Source: an uncultured Chitinophaga sp. (GTDB lineage Bacteria; Bacteroidota; Bacteroidia; Cytophagales; Cyclobacteriaceae). Taken from it: 64,000 nt of DNA. Under the pieces are notes generated by a model. The model did no database searches and had not been told where the DNA came from. It saw nothing but the letters and a program-made list of their open reading frames with translations. The DNA lies in the NCBI GenBank assembly GCA_902168205.1, contig CABHOK010000003.1, positions 1,550,001 through 1,614,000 of the forward strand, written 5' to 3'. How positions within the stretch are numbered: position 1 is the first letter of the stretch; every line of letters begins with the position of its first letter. Positions 30,420-47,213 of the stretch are shown here, piece by piece. The position numbers and the translations under genes are program-made.

Positions 30420-33400
30420 TTACTTACAGAACCATAATCGCATCAGTGACAGCAGTTGATCGATCTTCACAGGCTTTGTAATGTAATCGGAAGCTCCTGC
30501 CTCAATACATTTCTGCCGATCGCCTTTCATGGCTTTTGCAGTAACAGCAATGATCGGCAACGAACTGTTCTTGTGTTCGCGTCTGATCTTTTGCGTTGTC
30601 TCATAGCCATCCATTTCCGGCATCATAATATCCATCAGCACCATTTCTATTTTCGGGTTGTCATTCAAAATCTGAATAGCATCCTTACCACTTTCGGCCG
30701 TGATTACGTTTATATTGTAGCGCTCAAATACGGTAGTCAATGCAAACAGGTTTCGTACGTCATCATCTACTACCAGTATATTTCGTCCGCTCAGTATATC
30801 TTCTTTGTTACGGATGTTTTCGACAATGCGTTTTTTCTCACGCGACAGATCTTTGTGATTAATGTGCAGGTGCGCGATTGTTTCTTCCAGTAATTGCTCG
30901 ATGGAATTAGCGCTCTTCAGAATTACAGCATTTGAATTCTGATTGAGCTGATTCATCTCAGACTTCGAGAATTCCCGTGCGGAGTAAACGATCATCGGTG
31001 TGAGTTTCTTTTTCGTCTGCGTTATCTTACTCACAATTTCCGGTCCTGATATATCCGGCAATGTATAGTCCAGGATAATGCAATCCGGATCTTCCGCCTT
31101 GATCATTTCCAGCGCAGCTGTACCGGTGGGAGCGATGCTTACCTGCATGTTAACATCCTGAACAATCTTGGCAATCTGTGAAGAGTCGATCTCGTTGTCT
31201 TCCACCACCAGTATTCGCTTGATATCGCGCTGGTTATAGGTAGCGATATCCTTGAACAAGTCGTCCAGAGCTGTGTTGTCCAATGGCTTCAGCAGGAAAC
31301 TGCGGGCACCACGTTTCAATGCCAGTGCTTTATTTTCTTCACCGGAGATTACGTGGATTGGTATATGACGATAGTTGAGATCATTGCGTAACAGGTCGAG
31401 CACTTTCCATCCGCTCGTTGCCGGTAATTTTACATCCAACGTAATGGCTACTGGCGCAAAGCGGTTGATGAAGTCGAACACCTCCAGGTAGTTCGTGGCA
31501 ATAATTCCTTTCAAGCCAACTTCGTGTGCTTTGTCAATGATGATCTTTCCGAAACGGTAATCATCTTCCACAATCAACACCACTTTATCATTGGGTTGAA
31601 CATGCGTACGGTCGTCACCGGCCTCGTTGATCATCTCATTTACAATCTCCATACCGCCTCCGCGATTATCAACACCATCTTTGGTTACGCGCAATGTGCT
31701 GAGTAATGAATCAATGTTACCATCATTATCACTCAATTGCATTTGCTCGATGGCCTTGAGGTTCTTGGAAGTTTCGAGGGTTGCTATATTTGGAACGCTG
31801 TCTACCGGCAGGAACAAAGTAAATGTACTTCCTCTGCCCGGTGAACTGTCGAGTTCAATGGTACCGCCTAAGAGTTCGGCAAGACCACGGCTGATGGACA
31901 ATCCCAAACCGGTTCCACCATATTTACGACTGGTAGAACCTTCTGCCTGCTGGAAGGCTTCGAAGATGATCATCTGTTTCTCCTGCGGTATACCTATACC
32001 GGTATCACTGATGGAGAAAGCAATAACTTTTTTCGCATTGTCCAGATTCTGGTTGCCCGGTTTCCAATTGCGTTTCGCATCATATATACTCAGGCTTACT
32101 TCACCTTTCTCGGTAAACTTGAATGCATTGGACAACAGGTTTTTCAGGATCTGGTTGAGTCGTTGTATATCCGTTTCCATCGCGCTCGGCAACGCTGAAT
32201 CCATTTCAATTCTGAATTTAAGGTTGCGTGCTTCGGATATAGGCTTAAATGTAGTTTCAACAAAGGAGGCAATTTCCCCAAGCGGAACAGGGGAGATGTT
32301 GGTTGAAATAAATCCTGATTCGATTTTGGAAAGGTCGAGAATATCGTTGATCAACTGGATCAAGTCATCACCACACGAGTGAATTGTCTTCGCATAACGA
32401 ATCTGTTTCTCGTTCAGGTTACCTTCTGCATTTTCATAGAGTTGCTGTGCAAGAATGAGCAAGCTGTTGAGCGGTGTACGCAACTCGTGCGACATGTTCG
32501 CGAGAAATTCGGATTTATACTTCGAAGTAAGTGTAAGCTGCTCTGCTTTTTCTTCGAGCGACTTGCGGGCTTCTTCTACTTCCTTGTTCTTCGCTTCCAC
32601 TTCTTCTTTCTGTTTTACCAGCAGCAATGCTTTATCCTGGAGCTCATCGTTTGTTCTGCGCAACTCGCCTTGCTGTACTTTCAATTCACTCGCCAGGGAT
32701 TGCGACTGGGTAAGAAGTTCTTCCGTACGTGTATTCGCTTCGATCGTGTTCAACACGATACCGATACTTTCGGTTACCTGTTCCAGGAAGTCGATGTGGG
32801 TTTCATTGAATGCTTCGAGTGATGCGAGCTCGATTACCGCTTTCACATCGTTCTCGAACAACACCGGCAGGATGATCAGGTTGGAAGGTTTCGCTTTACC
32901 CAAACCGGAACTGATCTTGATATACCCTTGTGGTATATTGGTAAGTAATATTTTTTCTTTTTCAAATGCGCATTGGCCTACAAGACCTTCCCCTATGGCA
33001 AATTCTTTCGGCACTGTTTTTTCATCTTTATAGGCATACGCAGAGAAGAGCTGCAATTTCACATTTGAAGTTTCCTCATCCTGTTTCAGAATATAGAATG
33101 CACCGAAGTGAGCATTCACCACTTGCGCCAATTCGGAAAGTATACGTTTCGATACCGTATCGAGATCGCGTTGTCCCTGCAACATCTGCGTAAACTTCGC
33201 GAGGTTTGATTTGAGCCAGTCCTGATCCTGGTTACGCAATGTAGTTTCGCGCAGGTTGGTGATCATCTGGTTGATCGTATCTTTCAACGCCTCGAGTTCA
33301 CCTTTCGCATCCACGCGAATGGTTCGCGTCAAGTCACCTTTCGTTACGGCTGATGCCACTTCCGATATAGAACGCACCTGTGTAGTAAGATTCGCTGCGA

Positions 33401-36400
33401 GCTGGTTAACGTTCTCGGTCAAATCTTTCCATGTACCCGATGCACCCGGTACACTTGCCTGACCACCGAGTCGCCCTTCAACACCCACTTCGCGCGCCAC
33501 CGTTGTTACCTGGTCTGCGAACACCGCGAGTGTATCAATCATCTCGTTGATCGTATCGGTCAACTGTGCTAATTCTCCCAATGCGTTGATGGAAAGTTTC
33601 TGCTTCAAATTACCTTTCGCAACAGACGTCACAACTTTTGCTATACCACGCACCTGGCCGGTAAGGTTCGATGCCATCTGGTTTACAGAGTCTGTCAAAT
33701 CTTTCCATGTACCCGCCACACCACGTACTTCAGCCTGTCCTCCAAGTTTACCTTCGGTACCAACTTCACGTGCCACACGCGTTACTTCAAATGCAAATGA
33801 GTTGAGCTGCTCCACCATCGTGTTCACCGTATTCTTCAACTCCAACATTTCACCGCGCACGTCCACGGTAATTTTTTTGGACAAGTCTCCATTCGCCACC
33901 GCGGTTGTTACACCCGCTATATTTCGCACCTGGTCAGTGAGGTTACCGGCCATCTGGTTTACGGAGTCAGTCAAATCTTTCCATGTACCTGCTACACCGG
34001 GCACGAATGCCTGTCCACCCAGTTTACCTTCAGTACCCACTTCACGCGCCACACGCGTTACCTCTGATGCAAAACCACGAAGCTGGTCCACCATGGTGTT
34101 CAGCGTTTCTTTCAACTGCAAAATTTCTCCGCGTACGTCCACGGTAATTTTCTTGGACAAGTCACCGTTCGCTACGGCCACCGCTACGTTCGCTATATTT
34201 CGGATCTGTGCAGTAAGGTTACCCGCCATTTGATTCACAGAGTCAGTCAAACCTTTCCATACACCACCAACACCTTTCACCGTTGCCTGTCCACCCAGTT
34301 TACCTTCGGAACCCACCTCACTCGCCACACGCGTTACCTCGGATGCGAATGAGTTTAGCTGATCCACCATCGTGTTGATGGTGTTCTTCAACTCCAACAT
34401 TTCACCTTTCACGTCCACGGTAATTTTCTTGGACAAGTCTCCTTTCGCCACCGCGGTTGTTACCTCTGCTATATTTCGCACCTGGTTTGTCAGGTTATCC
34501 GCCATCTTGTTTACCGAATCTGTCAAGTCTTTCCATGTACCACCTACACCCGGTACATCGGCCTGACCACCGAGCTGACCTTCGGAACCTACTTCGCGTG
34601 CCACACGCGTTACTTCCGAACCGAAGGAGTTGAGCTGATCCACCATGGTATTGATAGTGTTCTTCAACTCCAACATTTCTCCGCGTACATCCACCGCGAT
34701 CTTTTTGGACAAGTCTCCTTTTGCCACCGCGGTTGTTACCTCTGCTATATTTCGCACCTGGTTGGTAAGGTTCGATGCCATCTGGTTCACGGAGTCCGTC
34801 AAATCTTTCCATGTACCACCAACACCCGGTACGTTTGCTTGTCCACCGAGCTGCCCTTCAGAACCCACTTCACGCGCCACACGTGTTACCTCGGAAGAGA
34901 ATGAGTTGAGCTGATCCACCATGGTATTTATAGTGTTTTTCAACTCCAACAATTCTCCCTTCGCATCCACGGTAATTTTCTTGGACAAGTCACCGTTCGC
35001 CACCGCAGTTGTTACCCCCGCTATATTTCGCACCTGACCTGTTAAGTTCGATGCCATCTGGTTTACCGAATCGGTGAGATCTTTCCATACACCACCGACA
35101 CCTTTCACCGTTGCCTGTCCACCCAGTTTACCTTCCGTACCTACTTCAAGTGCCACACGTGTTACTTCCGAACCGAACGAGTTGAGCTGATCCACCATGG
35201 TATTTATAGTGTTCTTCAACTCCAACATTTCACCGCGCACGTCCACGGTAATTTTCTTGGACAAGTCACCGTTCGCCACCGCGGTTGTTACCCCCGCTAT
35301 ATTTCGCACCTGACCTGTTAAGTTCGATGCCATCTGGTTTACGGAGTCAGTAAGATCTTTCCATATACCCCCTACACCTTTTACTGTTGCCTGTCCACCG
35401 AGTTTACCTTCCGTACCAACTTCAAGCGCCACACGTGTTACTTCCGAACCGAAGGAGTTGAGCTGATCCACCATGGTATTTATAGTGTTCTTCAACTCCA
35501 ACATTTCTCCACGCACGTCCACCGTAATTTTTTTGGACAAGTCACCGTTCGCCACAGCAGTAGTTACACCGGCTATATTTCGCACCTGGTTGGTAAGGTT
35601 ACCCGCCATCTGGTTTACCGAGTCAGTCAAGTCTTTCCATGTACCACCTACACCGGGTACATCAGCCTGTCCACCGAGCTGCCCTTCCGAACCCACTTCA
35701 CGCGCCACACGTGTTACCTCGGAAGAGAATGAGTTGAGCTGATCCACCATCGTGTTTATAGTGTTCTTCAACTCCAACAGTTCTCCTTTGGCATCCACAG
35801 TAATTTTCTTGGACAAGTCACCTTTCGCCACCGCGGTAGTTACCCCTGCTATATTTCGCACCTGGTTGGTAAGGTTACCCGCCATCTGGTTTACCGAGTC
35901 GGTGAGATCTTTCCATACACCACCAACACCACGCACCGTTGCTTGTCCACCGAGTCTTCCTTCTGTACCTACTTCAAGCGCCACACGCGTTACCTCGGAA
36001 GAGAAAGAGTTGAGCTGATCCACCATCGTGTTGATGGTGTTCTTCAACTCCAACATTTCACCTTTCACATCCACAGTAATTTTCTTCGAGAGATTACCGC
36101 GTGCTATAGCTGTCGTTACTTCCGCTACATTTCGTACCTGGTTGGTAAGGTTACCGGCCATCTGGTTTACCGAGTCGGTGAGATCTTTCCACACGCCATC
36201 GACACCTTTTACTTTCGCCTGTCCACCAAGTTTACCTTCCGAACCCACTTCACGTGCCACACGCGTTACCTCCATGGAGAACAGGTTCAACTGCTTCACC
36301 ATGTCGTTTACTTCTTTCGCGATGCGCGCAAATTCACCTTGCAATACGTGACCACCAATTTCCTGCGGCATCTCCTGCGAGAGATTTCCTTTTGCAACAG

Positions 36401-36857
36401 AACTGATTACGTGCGCGATTTCTATCGTTGGGTGTACAAGGTCGGAGATCAGGACATTGAGTGAGCTTACACCACTGGCCCATGAACCTTTTGCATTGGG
36501 TAAATCGATGCGTTGCGTAAGTTTACCTTGCTTACCGATAGTGTTACCGGCACGCATAAACTCCTGCATCATTTTTTCGTTCATCGAAATGATGTCGTTC
36601 AGTGTATCGCATATTTTACCACTGATACCAACCTGGTCAAACGGCATGCGCACTGAAAAATTTCCATTGCGTACTTCTGTTAATACACGAAGCAGTTCAC
36701 GATTATCGAGGATACCCATGAACTGTTGGTATTGATCTTCATTTATAGTATAGCGTGTAGGAGCTTTCTTTTTCCCGGCAGATTTAGGAGGGGAAATTAC
36801 AGCAACATCATCACCATTCTTCGAAGATGAATGAGTTGTCTTCGTTTTTTTGCCCAT
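30420..36857 (-). CDS. soluble poly-HAMP hybrid histidine kinase (about 13 HAMP, GAF, HisKA, HATPase, three REC)
   Basis: 2,145 residues from ATG 36857; the TTG eight codons upstream is unlikely. No transmembrane helix, so it is cytosolic. Order: basic disordered start; two divergent HAMP-like units (about 55-215); eleven 92-residue HAMP units (about 217-1200, each with [12 protein letters not shown] and [18 protein letters not shown]); GAF (about 1215-1385); coiled coil; HisKA with His in [20 protein letters not shown]; ATPase ([33 protein letters not shown]); REC1 ([11 protein letters not shown]), REC2 ([11 protein letters not shown]) and REC3 ([11 protein letters not shown]). This resembles fungal group III osmosensing kinases (Nik1/Os-1), which carry five to seven HAMPs. 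Phosphate would pass from its His to internal receivers, perhaps to the REC-kinase downstream. Confidence 0.93.
33250..36240 (-). repeat. tandem 276-bp coding repeat (11 HAMP units)
   Basis: The HAMP-coding part repeats with a 276-base period; blocks such as TCTTTCCATGTACC and TTGGACAAGTC recur every unit. Units 2 to 9 counted from the N-terminus are the most alike; the first and last diverge. Recurrent wording also varies by mosaic exchange (ATV/ADV/ANV and VKGEML/AKGELL cassettes alternate), which points to unequal recombination or gene conversion. Because of this identity, copy number may be wrong in short-read assemblies and may vary in the population. Confidence 0.9.
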
Positions 36858-37071
36858 GAGGTAGAAATTTTGAAATAACAATTTACTGGAGAAATCTTCA
36901 CAAATACACGCGTGTAGAAATTAAAAAAAAGAATTTGTCAAAAAAATTATATGAACGTGCATAACGATGCGGAATAACTTCTACAGAGTATAGTGAAATG
37001 TATATTTAAAAAAGCATGCCAATGCGGAGTATAGTATATCGTGCTATAGTGGTAGCGTTGTGTGGAGATGT

Positions 37072-37210
37072 AAGCTATGAGCTACGAGGAAGGTTAGCTG
37101 CTGGCTTCTGGCTACAAGAGGTGTTATCTGCTTGTTGCATTTTTTCCTGTAGCCAGTAGCCAGAAGCCCTATATATGCCTCGCGCAGCTCATAACTCAAA
37201 GCTCGCAGCT
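37072..37210. repeat. nested palindromic intergenic element, compact copy (family A)
   Basis: Left outer arm AAGCTATGAGCTACGAGG (from 37072), left inner arm GCTGCTGGCTTCTGGCTACA, right inner arm TGTAGCCAGTAGCCAGAAGC, right outer arm AGCTCATAACTCAAAGCTCG and CAGCT (to 37210). The inner arms match over about 18 bases, so the transcript would form a long hairpin with a loop of only about 28 bases. It overlaps the TAG stop (37209-37211) of the DJ-1/PfpI gene. The remainder of the gap up to 36858 is AT-rich and presumably holds the kinase promoter. Confidence 0.75.
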
Positions 37211-37763
37211 ATTCCTGGTGTACACCTTCTGCGATTTCTTCTACCATTTTTCGACAGAATGCAGGTAGGTCCTTTGGGCTCCTGCTGGTAACTAAACCGT
37301 TGTCAACTACCACTTCTTTGTCAACCCAGTTGGCACCGGCATTGATGAGATCGGTGCGGATAGAAGGGTAGGATGTTACTTCCCGTCCTTCCAGGAGACC
37401 TGTCTCAATCAACGTCCACGGACCGTGACATATAGCTGCTATAGGTTTATGCTCCTGCAGAAATGCAGTTACAAAATTTACAGCATCCTTGTTTACACGA
37501 AGCTGATCCGGATTGAGTACACCGCCTGGTAACACCAGGGCATCATACGACTGCGCGTTTACTTCGCTTACAGTTTTATTGACATCATATTCTTTGCCCC
37601 AGTTTTTTTCAGCCCATGCCTTGATCTTTCCTTTTTGCAATGAGACAACATCCACGTGCGCACCAGCTTCTTTCAAGGCTTTGATCGGTTCTGTAAATTC
37701 GGATTCCTCAAAACCATTTGTTGCGAGCACAGCTACTCTTTTATCTCCCAGTTTTGTCGCCAT
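37209..37763 (-). CDS. DJ-1/PfpI family type 1 glutamine amidotransferase-like protein
   Basis: 184 residues with the PfpI fold: KRVAVLATNGFEESEF start, catalytic nucleophile elbow AAICHGPWTLIE with Cys at about 109 followed by His, and SRSPKDLPAFCRKMVEEI at the end. The GFEESE glutamate that pairs with the cysteine is present. Homologues such as YhbO and YajL act on glycated or damaged macromolecules and protect in stress. The gene's stop is embedded in a palindromic repeat. Next to the Ku/LigD cluster it fits a stress-protection neighbourhood. Confidence 0.92.
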   Translation of the reverse strand: MATKLGDKRVAVLATNGFEESEFTEPIKALKEAGAHVDVVSLQKGKIKAWAEKNWGKEYDVNKTVSEVNAQSYDALVLPGGVLNPDQLRVNKDAVNFVTAFLQEHKPIAAICHGPWTLIETGLLEGREVTSYPSIRTDLINAGANWVDKEVVVDNGLVTSRSPKDLPAFCRKMVEEIAEGVHQE

Positions 37764-37959
37764 AATTTTTTTGGTTTTAGTGAAGCTGTGCGTGGACGAA
37801 AAAACTATACCGGAGGGAGGGGTGATACAATGGAACAGGCGTGCAGACGCAACGTTTAAAACAGCCGCTAGCTGTAGTTTGATTTCCGTAGCGAAACCGT
37901 TTTGCTGGCATATTCTCTTAGCTTGTAACGTAGCTTGTAACGCGTGGCGAGTTTTTCAT

Positions 37960-38021
37960 GCAGCTAGCAGCCTGTAGCCCTTGTATTGCTTCTCGAAGCT
38001 CAAAGCTCGCGGCTCGCAACT
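37960..38021. repeat. half copy of palindromic repeat family A
   Basis: Only the right half is well preserved: inner arm GCAGCTAGCAGCCTGTAGCC (37960-37979) and outer arm CTCGAAGCTCAAAGCTCGCG, GCTCGCAACT (about 37992-38021). A left arm is not evident; the sequence before it has the short direct repeat TAGCTTGTAACG twice (37919-37942). It lies in the 377-base divergent gap between the DJ-1/PfpI gene and the Ku-like gene; no other feature is seen in that gap. Confidence 0.55.
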
Positions 38022-38140
38022 GTTTTTGGACAATCATTTCTACAAACCCAAACCCCGCCTTCAGCATTATCGCTCTAAACGGTGTAAAACTCTCGGGCAC
38101 GAAATTTTACGGTATGCTTCGCTACAACCCTCGCTAATTT

Positions 38141-38620
38141 ATGCATACACTTTGGACAGGAACTCTGGAATTTGGCCTGGTTAATATTCCTTTTAAAATT
38201 GGTTCAGTAAGTTTCAGTCCGGGTGCTGATTCTCCGGCACTCGCCAAGGGAAATATAATTCGCATTGAAGACTTTTTGCTGAAAGATGAAGTGCATCTTC
38301 CTTCGCCTTCGTCCGATACTACTTTTCAGATACAACCGGAAGATACGGGACTGCATGCCTTTGATATCTTTCGTCATAGCCTCATTCGCAATAATAAAGT
38401 GGCCTTTGGGACTTTCAATGCATTGGACAACAATCGCGCCTGTTGGTTGCACGCTACCGATACTACGGTTTGGTTTCACCTCGGTGATGAGGTGCGCGAT
38501 GCAGAACAGTTGAACCGGTATATCAATTTCAGAAAGAGAATCAAGCAAAAACAACTTCCTAAAAAAACTTTCAATTCTACGGTGAGACAGCTACTCGCGG
38601 GACAGATCAGAATTTTCTGA
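38141..38620 (+). CDS. internally shortened Ku-like protein
   Basis: 159 residues, against about 250-280 for bacterial Ku. The start LWTGTLEFGLVNIPFKIGSV matches the Ku N-terminus (the neighbouring Ku has IWTGAIGFGLVNIPVKLYSA). The text then jumps to IIRIEDFLLKDEV, aligned with IEITDFVQEDEIDPVYY in Ku, and continues collinearly through HAFDIFRHSLIRNNKVAFGTF, CWLHATDTTVWFHL and GDEVRDAEQLNRY. About 40-45 residues of the first barrel region, and the C-terminal arm beyond FNSTVRQLLAGQIRIF, are missing. The frame is intact, with its own terminator, so it is not an obvious pseudogene. It may dimerise with the full Ku or regulate it; that is inference. Confidence 0.8.
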   Translation: MHTLWTGTLEFGLVNIPFKIGSVSFSPGADSPALAKGNIIRIEDFLLKDEVHLPSPSSDTTFQIQPEDTGLHAFDIFRHSLIRNNKVAFGTFNALDNNRACWLHATDTTVWFHLGDEVRDAEQLNRYINFRKRIKQKQLPKKTFNSTVRQLLAGQIRIF

Positions 38621-38655
38621 GGTATATAATTCTTTAAAGCAAACAATCCATTATC

Positions 38656-38708
38656 CCCCCTCTCAGGAGCAGGACGCAAGTCCTCTCCGAGAGGGGTATA
38701 TTTTTTAT
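38656..38708 (+). terminator. intrinsic terminator between the two Ku genes
   Basis: CCCCTCTC pairs with GAGAGGGG (ending 38697), with an inner stem AGGAC-GCAA-GTCCT, followed by TATATTTTTTA. It lies about 36 bases after the stop of the short Ku-like gene, so the short gene and the ku-ligD operon are probably separate transcripts. Confidence 0.8.
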
Positions 38709-38746
38709 GCTGGCACATTATTTATAACACTGTTTGCAGAAGCTAT

Positions 38747-38770
38747 GCACGTACGTACTATTGTACGTGC
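38747..38770. promoter_or_regulatory. palindrome upstream of ku-ligD
   Basis: GCACGTAC (38747-38754) and GTACGTGC (38763-38770) are perfect inverted copies with an 8-base spacer; short matching extensions (GCTA and TAGC) lie outside. It is 39 bases before the Ku ATG, where a repressor or activator of the repair operon could bind. Confidence 0.5.
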
Positions 38771-38808
38771 GCGTAGCATCAGCATGTATCATCAAACCCG
38801 TTTTTAAA

Positions 38809-39570
38809 ATGAAAGCAATATGGACAGGTGCTATAGGTTTTGGTCTGGTAAATATACCTGTAAAATTATATAGTGCCACACAGCAAAGTGATCTGGATCT
38901 TGATCTGCTTGACAAGAAAGATCACGCCAATATAAAATTCCAGCGCGTTAATAAAGAAACCGGTAAAGAGGTAACGTGGGCCAATATCGTGAAGGGCTAT
39001 AAATACAAAGGTGAATACGTTGTACTCGATGATAAAGACTTTGAGCGGGCGAGTCCGAAGAAAAGCAGGATGATCGAGATCACTGACTTTGTACAGGAAG
39101 ATGAGATCGACCCGGTATATTATGAGACACCGTATTACCTGGAGCCGGAGCGTTCGGGGTCCCGCGCGTATAGCCTGTTGCATGACGCACTTGTAAAAAG
39201 TGAAAAGGCTGCCGTGGGAAGTTTTGTATTGCGAAGTAAAGAACACTTGTGTGTATTGCGCGCCAGCGATAAAGTAATTGTATTGAACCGGATACGTTTC
39301 GCTGAGGAGATTCGCGATACATCGGAACTGAAATTACCAGCCGGCAGGCCTAAGGCAGCAGAGTTGAAGATGGCACTTTCGCTGATCGACCAGCTTACAG
39401 GTCCGTTCAAAATAGATAAGTTTAAAGATACCTATACCGGTGAATTGCGTAAATTGATCAAGGCAAAAGCTACCGGTAAGAAAGCAGACTACCCGAAACT
39501 GAAAGTAACACATCGTAAATCGACAGACCTGATGTCGCAGCTTAAGGCGAGTCTTAAACGTGCATCATAA
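38809..39570 (+). CDS. ku: Ku protein, non-homologous end joining
   Basis: 253 residues, a normal single-domain bacterial Ku that forms a homodimeric ring on broken DNA ends and recruits LigD. Start at ATG 38809 because the family begins MKAIWTGAIGFGLVNIPVKL; an upstream frame at 38734 adds non-homologous residues. Core barrel motifs are intact (FQRVNKETGKEVTWANIVKG, YVVLDDKDFERASPKKSR) and the C-terminus is Lys-rich (KAKATGKKADYPKLKVTHRK). Its TAA shares the A of the LigD ATG (TAATG), so the two are translationally coupled. Confidence 0.95.
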   Translation: MKAIWTGAIGFGLVNIPVKLYSATQQSDLDLDLLDKKDHANIKFQRVNKETGKEVTWANIVKGYKYKGEYVVLDDKDFERASPKKSRMIEITDFVQEDEIDPVYYETPYYLEPERSGSRAYSLLHDALVKSEKAAVGSFVLRSKEHLCVLRASDKVIVLNRIRFAEEIRDTSELKLPAGRPKAAELKMALSLIDQLTGPFKIDKFKDTYTGELRKLIKAKATGKKADYPKLKVTHRKSTDLMSQLKASLKRAS

Positions 39571-42116
39571 TGAGTCTACAGGTATATACCCGCAAGCGTA
39601 ATTTCGCGCATACACCCGAGCCTTCCGGCAAAGCAAAAAAGAAATCTGCTGCGCTTACTTTTGTCGTGCAGCGACATGATGCTTCGCGACTTCACTATGA
39701 TTTTCGATTGCAGGTTAACGGTGTCTTAAAAAGCTGGGCTGTACCGAAAGGTCCTTCGATGAATCCCAATGACAAGCGACTTGCAGTTATGGTGGAAGAT
39801 CATCCGCTGGCCTATGGAAATTTTGAAGGCGAAATTCCTGAAGGTAATTATGGTGCCGGTACCGTAGAGATATGGGATCATGGCACATACGAACCGGAAG
39901 AAGAAGCATCGGATCTCGATAAAACAATGATGCAGGGGTTGAAGAATGGCTCCCTGAAATTTATACTCTATGGCGAAAGGCTGAAAGGTTCTTTTGCATT
40001 GGTAAAGATGAAGAGTGGTGATGGCAAGAACTGGCTGCTCATCAAGCATCGCGATGAGTATGCAACGGATGAGTATGATATAGAACAAGAGTCTAAAGTA
40101 AAACGTAAATCCAGGAGCAGTAAAGATAAAAGCACTTCATCTGATACATCGGTGCCGCGTTCTGTACGATCATCAAAGGAGAAGGTAACAGACTATATTA
40201 AGCCCACCATGGCCTATACGCGTGAGGAGCCTTTTAATGATGAAGACTGGATCTTTGAAATTAAATGGGACGGTTATCGCGCAGTAGCAGAAGTGGGTAA
40301 GAAGAACATCAGGTTCTATTCGCGGAACGGTTTGTCATTCGAAAGACTATATCCCGCGATAGCAGAAGAGTTGAAAAAGATTAAAGATGATGTTGTGCTG
40401 GACGGTGAAGTTGTTGTGCTTGATAAGAATGATCGTCCGAGTTTTCAAAAGCTGCAGCACTATAGTGAGAATCGTTCATTGCCGTTGGTATATTACGTGT
40501 TTGATTGCCTGCGGTATAAAGGAAAAGATATAACGGACCTGCCGTTGCTTGAGCGGAAGAAGATAGCCGCACAGGTGTTGCCGCCAGGTAATATATTGAA
40601 ATATTCCGACCATGTTGCTGCCGATGGAAAGGCTTTCTTTGAACATGCTGTGAAGCTCGGCCTCGAAGGTATAATCGCGAAACGCGCAGAAAGTACATAT
40701 GCCGTTGGAAGAAGAACGTACGACTGGCTCAAGATAAAAAATCACAATACACAAGAGGCTGTTATAGCGGGCTATACCGAGCCGCGCGGCAGCAGAAGTT
40801 ATTTCGGTGCGTTGGTGCTGGCCATGTATCAGAAAGGTAAATTGAAATATATAGGACACACCGGCACAGGCTTTACTGAGAAGATACTGAAGGATGTGTT
40901 CAAAACGCTGCAACCGGATGTTCGCAAGACATCCCCGTTCGATACGAAAGTACCCATCAATGCACCGGTAACGTGGGTGGACCCTAAGCACGTATGTGCC
41001 ATCAAATATACCGAAGTAACGGATGATGGAATTTTGAGACACCCTGTGTTCATGGGATTACGGATTGATAAGAAAGCTAAAGAAGTAGATCACCTGGACG
41101 TGGAAGTAGCATCAGACAAAAACACAAAGACAAAAGTGAAAAAGACAGTTGCCCGGAAGCCAGCAGCTAAGAAAGTTGCCAGGCGGAAAGCAAGTGATAA
41201 GCCAGAAGCCGACAGCGGTATAGTAAAGGTGCAGGGACACGAACTGAAGTTTACACACCTCGATAAAATATACTGGCCAGACGAAGGTATTACCAAAGGG
41301 GAAGTGATTGAATATTATAACAGCATTCATAAATACATTCTTCCTTACCTGAAGGACAGACCGCAATCACTCAAACGAAATCCCAATGGTATAACGGATA
41401 AAGGCTTCTTTCATAAAGATGCCGGTGATGCCGCTCCGGAATGGGTGGATAATATAGAACTATATTCAGAGAGTGCCGACAAGGAGATTGACTATATCCT
41501 CTGCAACAACAAGGCAACGTTGTTATACCTGAATAATCTCGGTTGCATTGAAATCAATCCGTGGAATTCGCGTGTAAAGAGTTTGGACAATCCTGACTAT
41601 CTCATCATGGATATAGATCCTTCTGAAAAAAGTACGTTTGACGAGGTGATTGATGCGGCCCTGGTTATTAAAGATATACTGACCAAAGCCGGTGCGGCTT
41701 CGTTTTGTAAAACGTCTGGTGCATCGGGTCTGCATGTATACGTACCGTTGGGCGCGAAGTATGATTATGAACAGGCGCGTTCGTTCGCGGAGATTGTTGC
41801 CACACTGACGATGGAGCAATTGCCCGACACGACTACGATGGAACGTTCACTCAATAAACGCAAGAATAAAATATACCTGGATTACCTGCAGAACAAACGC
41901 GGACAAACACTGGCTTCGGTATATAGTCTGCGTCCGGTTCCGGGTGCGACTATATCTACACCGCTCGATTGGAAAGAAGTAAAGCGTGGATTGTCACCTG
42001 CACAGTTTACCATGAAGACGCTACCGAAGCGATTGGACAAAAAAGGCGATCTGTTCAAAGGCGTGTTGAAGAAAGGGATTGATATGGCGAAGTGCCTGAA
42101 GAAACTGGAAGGTTGA
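39570..42116 (+). CDS. ligD: ATP-dependent DNA ligase D (phosphoesterase-ligase-polymerase)
   Basis: 848-residue three-domain end-joining enzyme. Phosphoesterase at about 20-165 (FVVQRHDASRLHYDFRLQV with the catalytic His/Asp/Arg set, and HPLAYGNFEGEIPEGNYGAG). Ligase at about 205-520 with adenylated Lys in EIKWDGYRAV near 231, DGEVVVLD, KLGLEGIIAKRAES and YDWLKIK. Lys-rich linker at about 525-548. Polymerase/primase at about 550-848 (THLDKIYWPDEGITKGEVIE, YLIMDIDPSE, SGASGLHVYVPL). The order PE-LIG-POL is that of Pseudomonas LigD and differs from the mycobacterial POL-PE-LIG. Starts on the last base of the Ku stop. Confidence 0.96.
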   Translation: MSLQVYTRKRNFAHTPEPSGKAKKKSAALTFVVQRHDASRLHYDFRLQVNGVLKSWAVPKGPSMNPNDKRLAVMVEDHPLAYGNFEGEIPEGNYGAGTVEIWDHGTYEPEEEASDLDKTMMQGLKNGSLKFILYGERLKGSFALVKMKSGDGKNWLLIKHRDEYATDEYDIEQESKVKRKSRSSKDKSTSSDTSVPRSVRSSKEKVTDYIKPTMAYTREEPFNDEDWIFEIKWDGYRAVAEVGKKNIRFYSRNGLSFERLYPAIAEELKKIKDDVVLDGEVVVLDKNDRPSFQKLQHYSENRSLPLVYYVFDCLRYKGKDITDLPLLERKKIAAQVLPPGNILKYSDHVAADGKAFFEHAVKLGLEGIIAKRAESTYAVGRRTYDWLKIKNHNTQEAVIAGYTEPRGSRSYFGALVLAMYQKGKLKYIGHTGTGFTEKILKDVFKTLQPDVRKTSPFDTKVPINAPVTWVDPKHVCAIKYTEVTDDGILRHPVFMGLRIDKKAKEVDHLDVEVASDKNTKTKVKKTVARKPAAKKVARRKASDKPEADSGIVKVQGHELKFTHLDKIYWPDEGITKGEVIEYYNSIHKYILPYLKDRPQSLKRNPNGITDKGFFHKDAGDAAPEWVDNIELYSESADKEIDYILCNNKATLLYLNNLGCIEINPWNSRVKSLDNPDYLIMDIDPSEKSTFDEVIDAALVIKDILTKAGAASFCKTSGASGLHVYVPLGAKYDYEQARSFAEIVATLTMEQLPDTTTMERSLNKRKNKIYLDYLQNKRGQTLASVYSLRPVPGATISTPLDWKEVKRGLSPAQFTMKTLPKRLDKKGDLFKGVLKKGIDMAKCLKKLEG

Positions 42117-45995: not shown

Positions 45996-47213
45996 TCAGA
46001 ATAGCTTTAACTGCTGATTCTTTTTGGGAGGGGGAGGCACGGCTTTACCAAATACGGTGCGACCTTCGTATTTCCACGATTCTTCACGTTCTTTCTCGAT
46101 CACCGCATCCAGGTTTGTATTCGGTATAAAGTCTTTCTCGGCACGGATCGAAAGATCCGAAAGACTTTTTATGGCCTGTTGTTTATCGCTTTCTCCAAGC
46201 TTGGCCTTATCAACCGCTGTTCGGAGGGTCGCGATAGTCTCATCGTATACTTTTACAGGTACAGGAAATGGATGACCATCTTTACCACCATGCGCAAATG
46301 AAAAACGAGCCGGATCTTTAAAACGTGAAGGCGTTCCATAAATAACTTCGCTCACTAATGTTAATGACTGCAGTGTCCGCGGGCCAAGTCCTTCGAGTAA
46401 CAATAATTCTTCAAAATCTTTGGGTTGCTTTTCATGCGCGAGCCAAAGTATACTTCCCAGTCGTTTAATGTCTACATCTTTTGCTTTTACTTCATGATGC
46501 GAAGGCATTATGAGCTGACGTATTTCTTTCAGCATGCGCTCAGGTGATTCATGCGCCATCTCCATCAGGCTCGAACGCGTAGGAGAAGCTTCGCGTGCCA
46601 CCATGTTCAGTATATTTCCCTGGTTCTCTCCGCAGATCGATGCATGCGGCTCTTCGACAAAAGAAGTAAGTGAAGCCGAATGCCAATGATACCTTCGCGC
46701 AGTTGTACTCATCGGACTCATGCCTTGTTGTACCACAGCCCATTGTCCTTCGCTGCTCACGATAAAATTATGAAGATATAGTTGAAAACCATCCTGCACA
46801 GCGGTGTTATCAACCTTTGCACTAAGCTTGCTGCAGCGTGCGAGGAAGTCACCATCAAGCCCGGTATATTCTCCAACCTTTAACAATTCAGCAGGTGTCT
46901 CACGCGAGGTTTTCCCTTTACCACCACATATATAGATTCCCAGTTCTTTCGCATGCGGATTTATAGCACGCTTCAATGCACCCATCACCGAAGTAGTTAT
47001 ACCGGAAGAATGCCAGTCCATTCCCATCACGCAACCCAGACTCTGAAACCAGAACGGATCACTAAGTCTTCGCAGTACTTCCGCTTTACCATACTCAGTT
47101 ATAATTGCTTCCGTAATCGCGAGACCAAGTCTGCCCATACGCTCCGCGAGCCACCGCGGAACATGTCCGTAATGTAAAGGAAGATCTGCCGTACCCGAAC
47201 GCCTCAAGCTCAT
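45996..47213 (-). CDS. DUF763 family protein with helix-hairpin-helix and clamp-binding-like C-terminus
   Basis: 405 residues of the DUF763 family, recognised by the opening RRSGTADLPLHYGHVPRWLA, FWFQSLGCVMGMDWHSSG and the conserved LGIYICGGKGKTSR. An HhH-like segment (LLLLEGLGPRTLQSLTLVSE near 290) is of the DNA-glycosylase/RuvA type. The protein ends NQQLKLF, which fits the bacterial sliding-clamp-binding consensus QLxLF at the extreme C-terminus. This suggests a DNA-processing enzyme tethered to DnaN; the family has no established activity that I know of. It stands near Ku, LigD and Nei. Confidence 0.88.
   Translation of the reverse strand: MSLRRSGTADLPLHYGHVPRWLAERMGRLGLAITEAIITEYGKAEVLRRLSDPFWFQSLGCVMGMDWHSSGITTSVMGALKRAINPHAKELGIYICGGKGKTSRETPAELLKVGEYTGLDGDFLARCSKLSAKVDNTAVQDGFQLYLHNFIVSSEGQWAVVQQGMSPMSTTARRYHWHSASLTSFVEEPHASICGENQGNILNMVAREASPTRSSLMEMAHESPERMLKEIRQLIMPSHHEVKAKDVDIKRLGSILWLAHEKQPKDFEELLLLEGLGPRTLQSLTLVSEVIYGTPSRFKDPARFSFAHGGKDGHPFPVPVKVYDETIATLRTAVDKAKLGESDKQQAIKSLSDLSIRAEKDFIPNTNLDAVIEKEREESWKYEGRTVFGKAVPPPPKKNQQLKLF

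Follow-up and report, generated by a model that had tools for sequence, protein, structure and literature searches.

A short, bridge-less Ku paralogue beside ku-ligD in Ohtaekwangia that may regulate DNA-break repair

The short ku gene and its neighborhood

The window, the whole 64,000-nucleotide stretch of DNA analyzed here, carries a short ku-like gene upstream of an intact ku-ligD pair. The features of this region are as follows.

38096..38140, plus strand: leader of the short ku gene, beginning GGCACGAAATTTTA; promoter-like (putative function)
38141..38620, plus strand: short, bridge-less Ku paralogue of 159 amino acids (aa), recognized by Ku similarity, three orthologs, and dN/dS
38141..38203, plus strand: codons 1-21 of the short gene, encoding a beta1-beta2 hairpin whose stacking loop, LVNIP, occupies residues 13-17
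38658..38708, plus strand: terminator-like hairpin (38658-38695) and T-run, 3' of the short ku gene
38711..38725, plus strand: TGGCACATTATTTAT, 5' of the full-length ku gene and identical at all four orthologous loci
38809..39570, plus strand: full-length Ku (Ku1), 253 aa; intact, matches the Ku profile
39570..42116, plus strand: LigD, 848 aa, with phosphoesterase, ligase, and polymerase domains; intact

The short open reading frame runs from an ATG start to a TGA stop without internal stops. Its product matches the neighboring Ku in BLASTP (E=6e-13, identities 25/93) and NCBIfam Ku_bact (TIGR02772) with E=3.8e-10 and 39.6 bits, which does not reach the curated cutoff of 150 bits; against Pfam Ku it scores only E=0.038 and 14.3 bits, under the cutoff of 25. 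Judged by sequence, it is homologous to TIGR02772 but outside that functional (equivalog) family. The BLASTP and Ku_bact similarities, together with the integrity of both neighbors, bear out the original prediction that a true short Ku paralogue adjoins an intact Ku and LigD.

The 45 bases 5' of the short ku ATG can be aligned at all four orthologous loci, and GGCAYGAWATTTTA is found near the leader position in all four; identity to the leader in the window's genome (G000) is 35/43 in G001, 29/41 in G004, and 28/41 in G005. A hairpin accompanied by a run of T or pyrimidines likewise occupies the equivalent place 3' of each copy, as a strong hairpin and T-run after the stop in the window and in UBA5867 and as a larger hairpin with a T/pyrimidine tract at the other two loci; the terminator scan itself gave a weak signal, 3 sites versus 1.2 +/- 1.2 in shuffles. 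With a conserved leader and a 3' hairpin at every copy, the short ku gene has the look of a unit separate from the ku-ligD pair downstream. The exact 15-mer TGGCACATTATTTAT occurs once in the genome, with 2 more sites at one mismatch, and is possibly a promoter or regulatory element of ku-ligD. We infer that the leader, the hairpin, and TGGCACATTATTTAT are promoter and terminator elements. The TTTG...TANNTTTG promoter pattern is absent before both the short and the full-length gene, and Rfam gave no match at gathering score within 36900-39000. A sigma-54 promoter reading of TGGCAC 5' of ku was rejected since the -12 element is missing.

A GGCAY...ATTT-like element precedes both the short ku gene (38096-38109) and ku1 (38711-38725) at all four loci, and similar strings lie upstream of ku1 in G006 and of ku2 in the window's genome (L114 and L002); the element is absent from the ku1 upstream regions of G002 and G003. 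It could be a common element of NHEJ genes. The looser form, GGCAYNWWATTTW, has 38 genome sites versus 20 for a reversed control, which is weak as a genome-wide signal.

Several other features of the neighborhood were recorded. The annotated neighbors include an Fpg/Nei-type glycosylase gene nearby. Repeated or palindromic intergenic pieces, at 37097-37167, 37188-37210, and 37992-38014, surround the DJ-1/PfpI gene and comprise an imperfect 23-nt inverted repeat and a 23-nt direct repeat. The open reading frame at 30420-36881 (minus strand; 2153 aa), by its appearance presumably a hybrid histidine kinase gene, contains a tandem array at 33649-36272 with a 276-base unit and ~9.5 copies; its counterpart at a relative's locus (L068) has 1872 aa and about three 92-aa units fewer, so that array copy number may vary among relatives. 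A conserved 405-aa protein encoded at 45996-47213 (minus strand) ends in QQLKLF, as do its equivalents at the relatives' loci L067-L069, and this ending resembles a sliding-clamp-binding peptide.

Orthologs and selective constraint

Within Ohtaekwangia, four of the seven genus genomes carry the short ku gene; besides the window's copy, one genome has an ortholog at 92% identity and two have orthologs at 51-52%. The original prediction had named full-length homologues in close relatives as the mark of a local deletion, and these were not what we found: the orthologs of all three relatives are exactly 159 aa. At each of the four loci the short gene has a divergent DJ-1/PfpI-type gene on one side and ku-ligD on the other, the genes of the relatives being assigned by sequence likeness. 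A two-peptide-pattern scan of 84,980 species genomes, our only test beyond Bacteroidota and one that would miss distant forms, placed three loci in Flammeovirgaceae bacterium UBA5867, an uncultured MAG, and Ohtaekwangia koreensis DSM 25262. The genus scans showed no short ku gene in G002, G003, or G006. The ku and ligD genes of G006 are divergent, and in G002 and G003 a putative surE-like gene precedes ku-ligD.

The short ku gene is under strong purifying selection. Its dN/dS (Nei-Gojobori) is 0.055 between G000 and G001 (dS 0.92) and 0.041 between G004 and G005 (dS 0.20), with a synonymous excess of Fisher p 8e-28 and 5e-10, respectively; the corresponding values for full-length ku are 0.030 and 0.019. 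These low ratios indicate that the short gene is strongly constrained, slightly less than ku itself, and its absence from three of the seven genus members indicates that it is dispensable. In line with the view that the gene is not decaying, the frame lacks internal stops, both ratios are low, and the orthologs are of equal length.

Wider scans returned no further short Ku, either in 295 family genomes (query P0001) or, among the candidates scored, in 390 order genomes (short-only profile) and 395 phylum genomes (combined profile A5); in the order and phylum scans, part of the first-look candidates was scored in many genomes. The TIGR02772 screen at E<=1e-4 was insensitive, recovering the short Ku of the window and missing the other three known orthologs, and the phylum and genus scans were therefore redone with alignment A5, which recovered all four, a result that is partly circular because A5 includes those four sequences. 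The remaining matches listed in the family, order, and phylum scans fall in frames of at least 254 aa, except the one in G847. G015 gave a weak match to P0001 within a 1002-aa frame; the 123-aa Ku frame of G847 was rejected as a short Ku since it runs off the end of a 6,333-base contig. The short-long pair expected in relatives is thus present in four of the seven genus genomes, and as a general Cytophagales pair it was found nowhere else in the family, order, and phylum scans. No short-Ku relative was detected on viral contigs with P0001, on plasmids and phages by tblastn, or in PADLOC; P0002 as a lone query also found nothing on viral contigs, on which the Ku alignment as query did recover viral loci.

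Other candidates were set aside. Those in G039 and G058 (loci L019 and L018) gave Pfam E values of 0.0086 and 0.0012 over profile positions 108-185 only and were taken as chance matches; these regions hold larger open reading frames that presumably encode a dehydrogenase and a transporter. Partial Ku frames in G213, G263, G059, and G072 span profile ranges 1-182, 55-259, 1-49, and 1-238, respectively, without the bridge gap.

The short protein lacks the bridge, most DNA contacts, and the C terminus

The short proteins were aligned with 35 Kus, comprising the window's Ku, 22 from the family and order (including the window genome's own Ku2), 10 viral Kus, and those of Bacillus subtilis and Mycobacterium tuberculosis. 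Residues ~36-85 of the window's full-length Ku are missing from all four short proteins, forming one gap of 49-51 columns in two alignments, with edges that depend on the alignment; when distant viral Kus are included, the gap splits and its edges shift. The collinear alignment with the neighboring Ku had been correctly anticipated, and the gap is slightly larger than the 40-45 residues given for it. In mycobacterial Ku the bridge consists of residues 23-91, three beta-hairpins that run antiparallel to those of the partner and enclose the DNA, and it makes 20 hydrogen-bonded contacts in the homodimer (PMC12784962). Since the gap lies inside this published bridge, the missing part belongs to the ring-closing bridge, a point that the original prediction had proposed to test.

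Most of the residues that contact DNA are also gone, as judged against a contact list for B. subtilis Ku (PMC12784961) from which the window's own full-length Ku also departs at several places. None of the six contacts of the ring motif (motif 1) is kept in the short Ku, three being deleted and three replaced. Among the 10 residues of motif 2 (counted in one protomer), all four short proteins retain only H19, T20, W22, and K36; every one of them has substitutions at K106, R126, Y128, and R161, and the position of R188, occupied by R, K, T, and T, is kept in one. The full-length Ku of the window has D at R49 and T at R126, and the loss of DNA-binding residues is therefore partly lineage-wide. 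Residues 1-118 carry a net charge of -6 in all four short proteins, and the charge of the C-terminal tail is positive (+4 to +10). With four motif 2 residues kept and a basic tail, some DNA contact is possible.

The short Ku ends near residue 217 of the window's full-length Ku, about 36 residues early, and the C-terminal arm is absent, as predicted. Across residues 119-140 identity between G000 and G004 is 2/22. A C-terminal Q-I-R-[IL]-F, which resembles a bacterial sliding-clamp peptide, was rejected as such: it is present in only two of the four orthologs, the other two ending in Q-R-I-R-F-F, and it aligns with Ku's own GELRKLI. LigD recruitment requires a minimal C-terminal region of Ku (PMC13201618), and this region is absent from the short Ku.

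The stacking loop is retained

The best conserved of the 11 segments compared is the beta1-beta2 segment, with 18/21 identical residues between G000 and G004 versus 81/157 overall, and the same 18 residues are invariant in all four orthologs. The hypergeometric p of 6e-4 for this excess is uncorrected and refers to segment boundaries chosen after viewing the alignment; the next best segments, 8/10 and 7/9 identical, are nearly as conserved. The segment contains LVNIP, corresponding to L30-V31-N32-I33-P34 of B. subtilis Ku, identical in all four short proteins and preceded, at the position of G29, by G, G, D, and D. L142/L143 are represented by I/L and F, which likewise counts against a strictly kept stacking contact.

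In B. subtilis Ku the LVNIP loop is the center of contact between adjacent homodimers, and the L30G and N32E mutations abolish oligomers while leaving DNA binding not significantly reduced (PMC12784961). Similarly, L13A/V14A in M. tuberculosis Ku abolishes filaments and the equivalent M. smegmatis mutant does not restore survival, whereas filaments still form in the helical-contact mutant S201A/Q197A (PMC12658125). The short Ku has kept the LVNIP contact and has lost a recognizable helix (alpha3) of the second contact.

The retention of LVNIP may, however, serve folding rather than stacking. T replaces N32 in 17 of the 35 Kus, so the stacking loop itself varies, and among Ku positions conserved at 80% or above, the short proteins keep 5/8 on the stacking face and 8/23 elsewhere, numbers too small to decide. 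In the Ku2 proteins of the family the loop reads SLVTIP instead of GLVNIP, which hints that the Ku2 stacking surface differs.

Predicted fold and origin

An AlphaFold2 model of the short Ku, made with a 22-row alignment, has a mean pLDDT of 76 and a pTM of 0.68. Averaged over blocks of ten residues, pLDDT is 83-94 between residues 61 and 120, 54-66 in the linker standing in for the bridge, and 47-50 over the final 20 residues. In a Foldseek search of the PDB, bacterial Ku chains rank first (best E 1.9e-7), at moderate TM-scores by query (0.52-0.55) and high rmsd, followed by eukaryotic Ku; Med25 ACID (2l23; E 8e-3, TMq 0.46, a weak match) and Sld7 rank 45 and 49, and no chain titled SPOC is among the best 50 of 657 rows. 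The four short sequences alone gave a pLDDT of 50.7, showing that the predicted fold rests partly on Ku sequences. By sequence and model, the short Ku is predicted to retain the Ku beta-barrel core.

The window's genome encodes a second full-length Ku (Ku2) on another contig (L095, 9733-10590, minus strand), and the A5 profile found no further Ku-like places in it. A 39-row tree groups the short proteins together (100/100); their very long branch joins among LigD-linked Ku1 rather than Ku2, at an exact position made unsure by long branches and odd composition. The short Ku is therefore likely to have arisen by duplication of the LigD-linked Ku and to have diverged fast. The simplest history would be a duplication followed by a burst of change in which the bridge was lost, and then by strong constraint.

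A model for the short Ku and its alternatives

Four genomes hold a Ku-related protein that lacks most of the bridge and the C terminus and is under strong purifying selection. With no ring, no route to LigD, the main DNA contacts lost, and the stacking hairpin kept, this protein would most simply act on full-length Ku. We propose that it would neither form a ring nor recruit LigD and would instead dock, through the LVNIP loop, on the outward-facing side of a full-length Ku homodimer bound to DNA. Unable to thread DNA or to offer a second Ku ring, it would cap or limit the Ku array at the break, which might adjust synapsis and repair or set the ends free. Expression is probably from its own promoter, beside and possibly together with that of ku-ligD. 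Because the stacking loop is kept, capping or tuning of Ku arrays is favored over completion of the ring. That the short Ku, as a non-ring unit, binds the stacking face of full-length Ku and so serves to cap or tune Ku arrays seems to us quite possible, if short of probable; that it is a natural bacterial Ku-filament cap, a ring-less paralogue ending or tuning Ku arrays through its LVNIP face, is put forward more tentatively.

Alternatively, the barrel may bind proteins other than Ku, taking up a peptide in the manner of SPOC or Med25 ACID and so linking another protein to the repair site. SPOC, the Ku70/Ku80 barrel, and ACID are structurally homologous (PMC4981400), and the loss of DNA-contact residues and the presence of ACID in the model's list of PDB matches are consistent with such a role. 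That match is weak, however, the annotated neighbors show no obvious partner besides Ku and LigD, and LVNIP is kept even though SPOC-like binding has no need of it, leaving this explanation doubtful if credible.

The original prediction had raised heterodimerization with the full-length Ku. A short protein joined to one full Ku through its barrel and the full Ku's sling would give an open ring: either a half ring able to load onto or come off DNA that has no end, or a Ku with altered affinity. One protomer's sling does wrap the other's beta-barrel (PMC12784962), the barrel appears from the model to be kept, and the short and full-length genes are adjacent at all four loci. Missing, however, are the bridge and its 20 hydrogen-bonded contacts, the C-terminal part is shortened and diverged, as seen in residues 119-140, and the best conserved segment is the one that carries the inter-dimer loop. 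Because the bridge is a main homodimer contact (PMC12784962), a heterodimer is possible but less strong a candidate than had been suggested, and we consider the open-ring form rather unlikely.

It is improbable that the short Ku works as a DNA- or lesion-binding monomer, with the barrel, the residues H2, T3, W5, and K19, and the basic tail placed on the minor groove, DNA ends, or abasic sites and the DNA left unthreaded. H2-T3 corresponds to H19-T20 of the second DNA-binding motif of B. subtilis Ku, whose abasic-site lyase activity has been proposed to be located outside the channel (PMC4245934), and the basic tail and the nearby Fpg/Nei-type glycosylase gene would also suit such a role. Against this, the main arginines and lysines are missing from both motifs, and the core carries an acidic charge. 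Finally, a functionless relic or misread open reading frame, to which the absence from three of seven genus genomes and the subthreshold Pfam score might point, is scarcely credible, being already contradicted by selection (dN/dS 0.04-0.06), equal length and synteny in four genomes, and conservation of the leader motif and hairpin.

Comparison with known systems

We found no description of a bridge-less bacterial Ku in the open-licence PMC literature, a limited search, nor any mention of one in the accessible parts of PMC11936186 and PMC7719229. Structures of Ku filaments on DNA date from 2025-2026 only, and the accessible parts of these filament papers present bacterial end joining as Ku plus LigD and yielded no account of how Ku filament length is controlled. 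If the proposed docking on full-length Ku is true, the short Ku would be a dedicated regulator within an end-joining system otherwise described as two-protein. A ring-less, selected Ku paralogue with a stacking loop is a natural probe. The short Ku may thus be a natural regulator of DNA-break repair.

Like bacterial Ku (TIGR02772; B. subtilis and M. tuberculosis; PDB 9vnq, 8v53, and 9i91), the short Ku has the N-terminal strand pair WTG..F.LVNIP, the same order of elements, linkage to ligD, and, as predicted, the beta-barrel core. Unlike bacterial Ku, it lacks ~50 bridge residues, a recognizable alpha3 contact, the C-terminal LigD-recruiting region, and most DNA-contact residues, and it is 159 aa long versus ~250-290 aa in the relatives compared. 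Multiple Ku genes in one genome are known, with KuA, KuB, and KuC in Streptomyces and four in Sinorhizobium meliloti (PMC7719229, PMC5124664), and Streptomyces Ku proteins guard DNA ends and stimulate ligase (PMC5124664), but no bridge-less form is described for these genomes in the accessible parts of the papers. The short Ku also resembles phage Ku-like proteins (PHROG 4873), matching the first 26 profile positions (E 2.4e-4); these differ in that the bridge region is kept in the 14 aligned of 15 viral loci found. Eukaryotic SPOC and Med25 ACID are, like the proposed short Ku, Ku-type barrels without a DNA ring that serve protein contacts (PMC4981400), although their cellular role is another, a sequence link was not seen, and the Foldseek ACID match is weak. 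The short Ku would show how a ring protein can become a regulator through the loss of one insert, in parallel with the SPOC and ACID barrels of eukaryotes.
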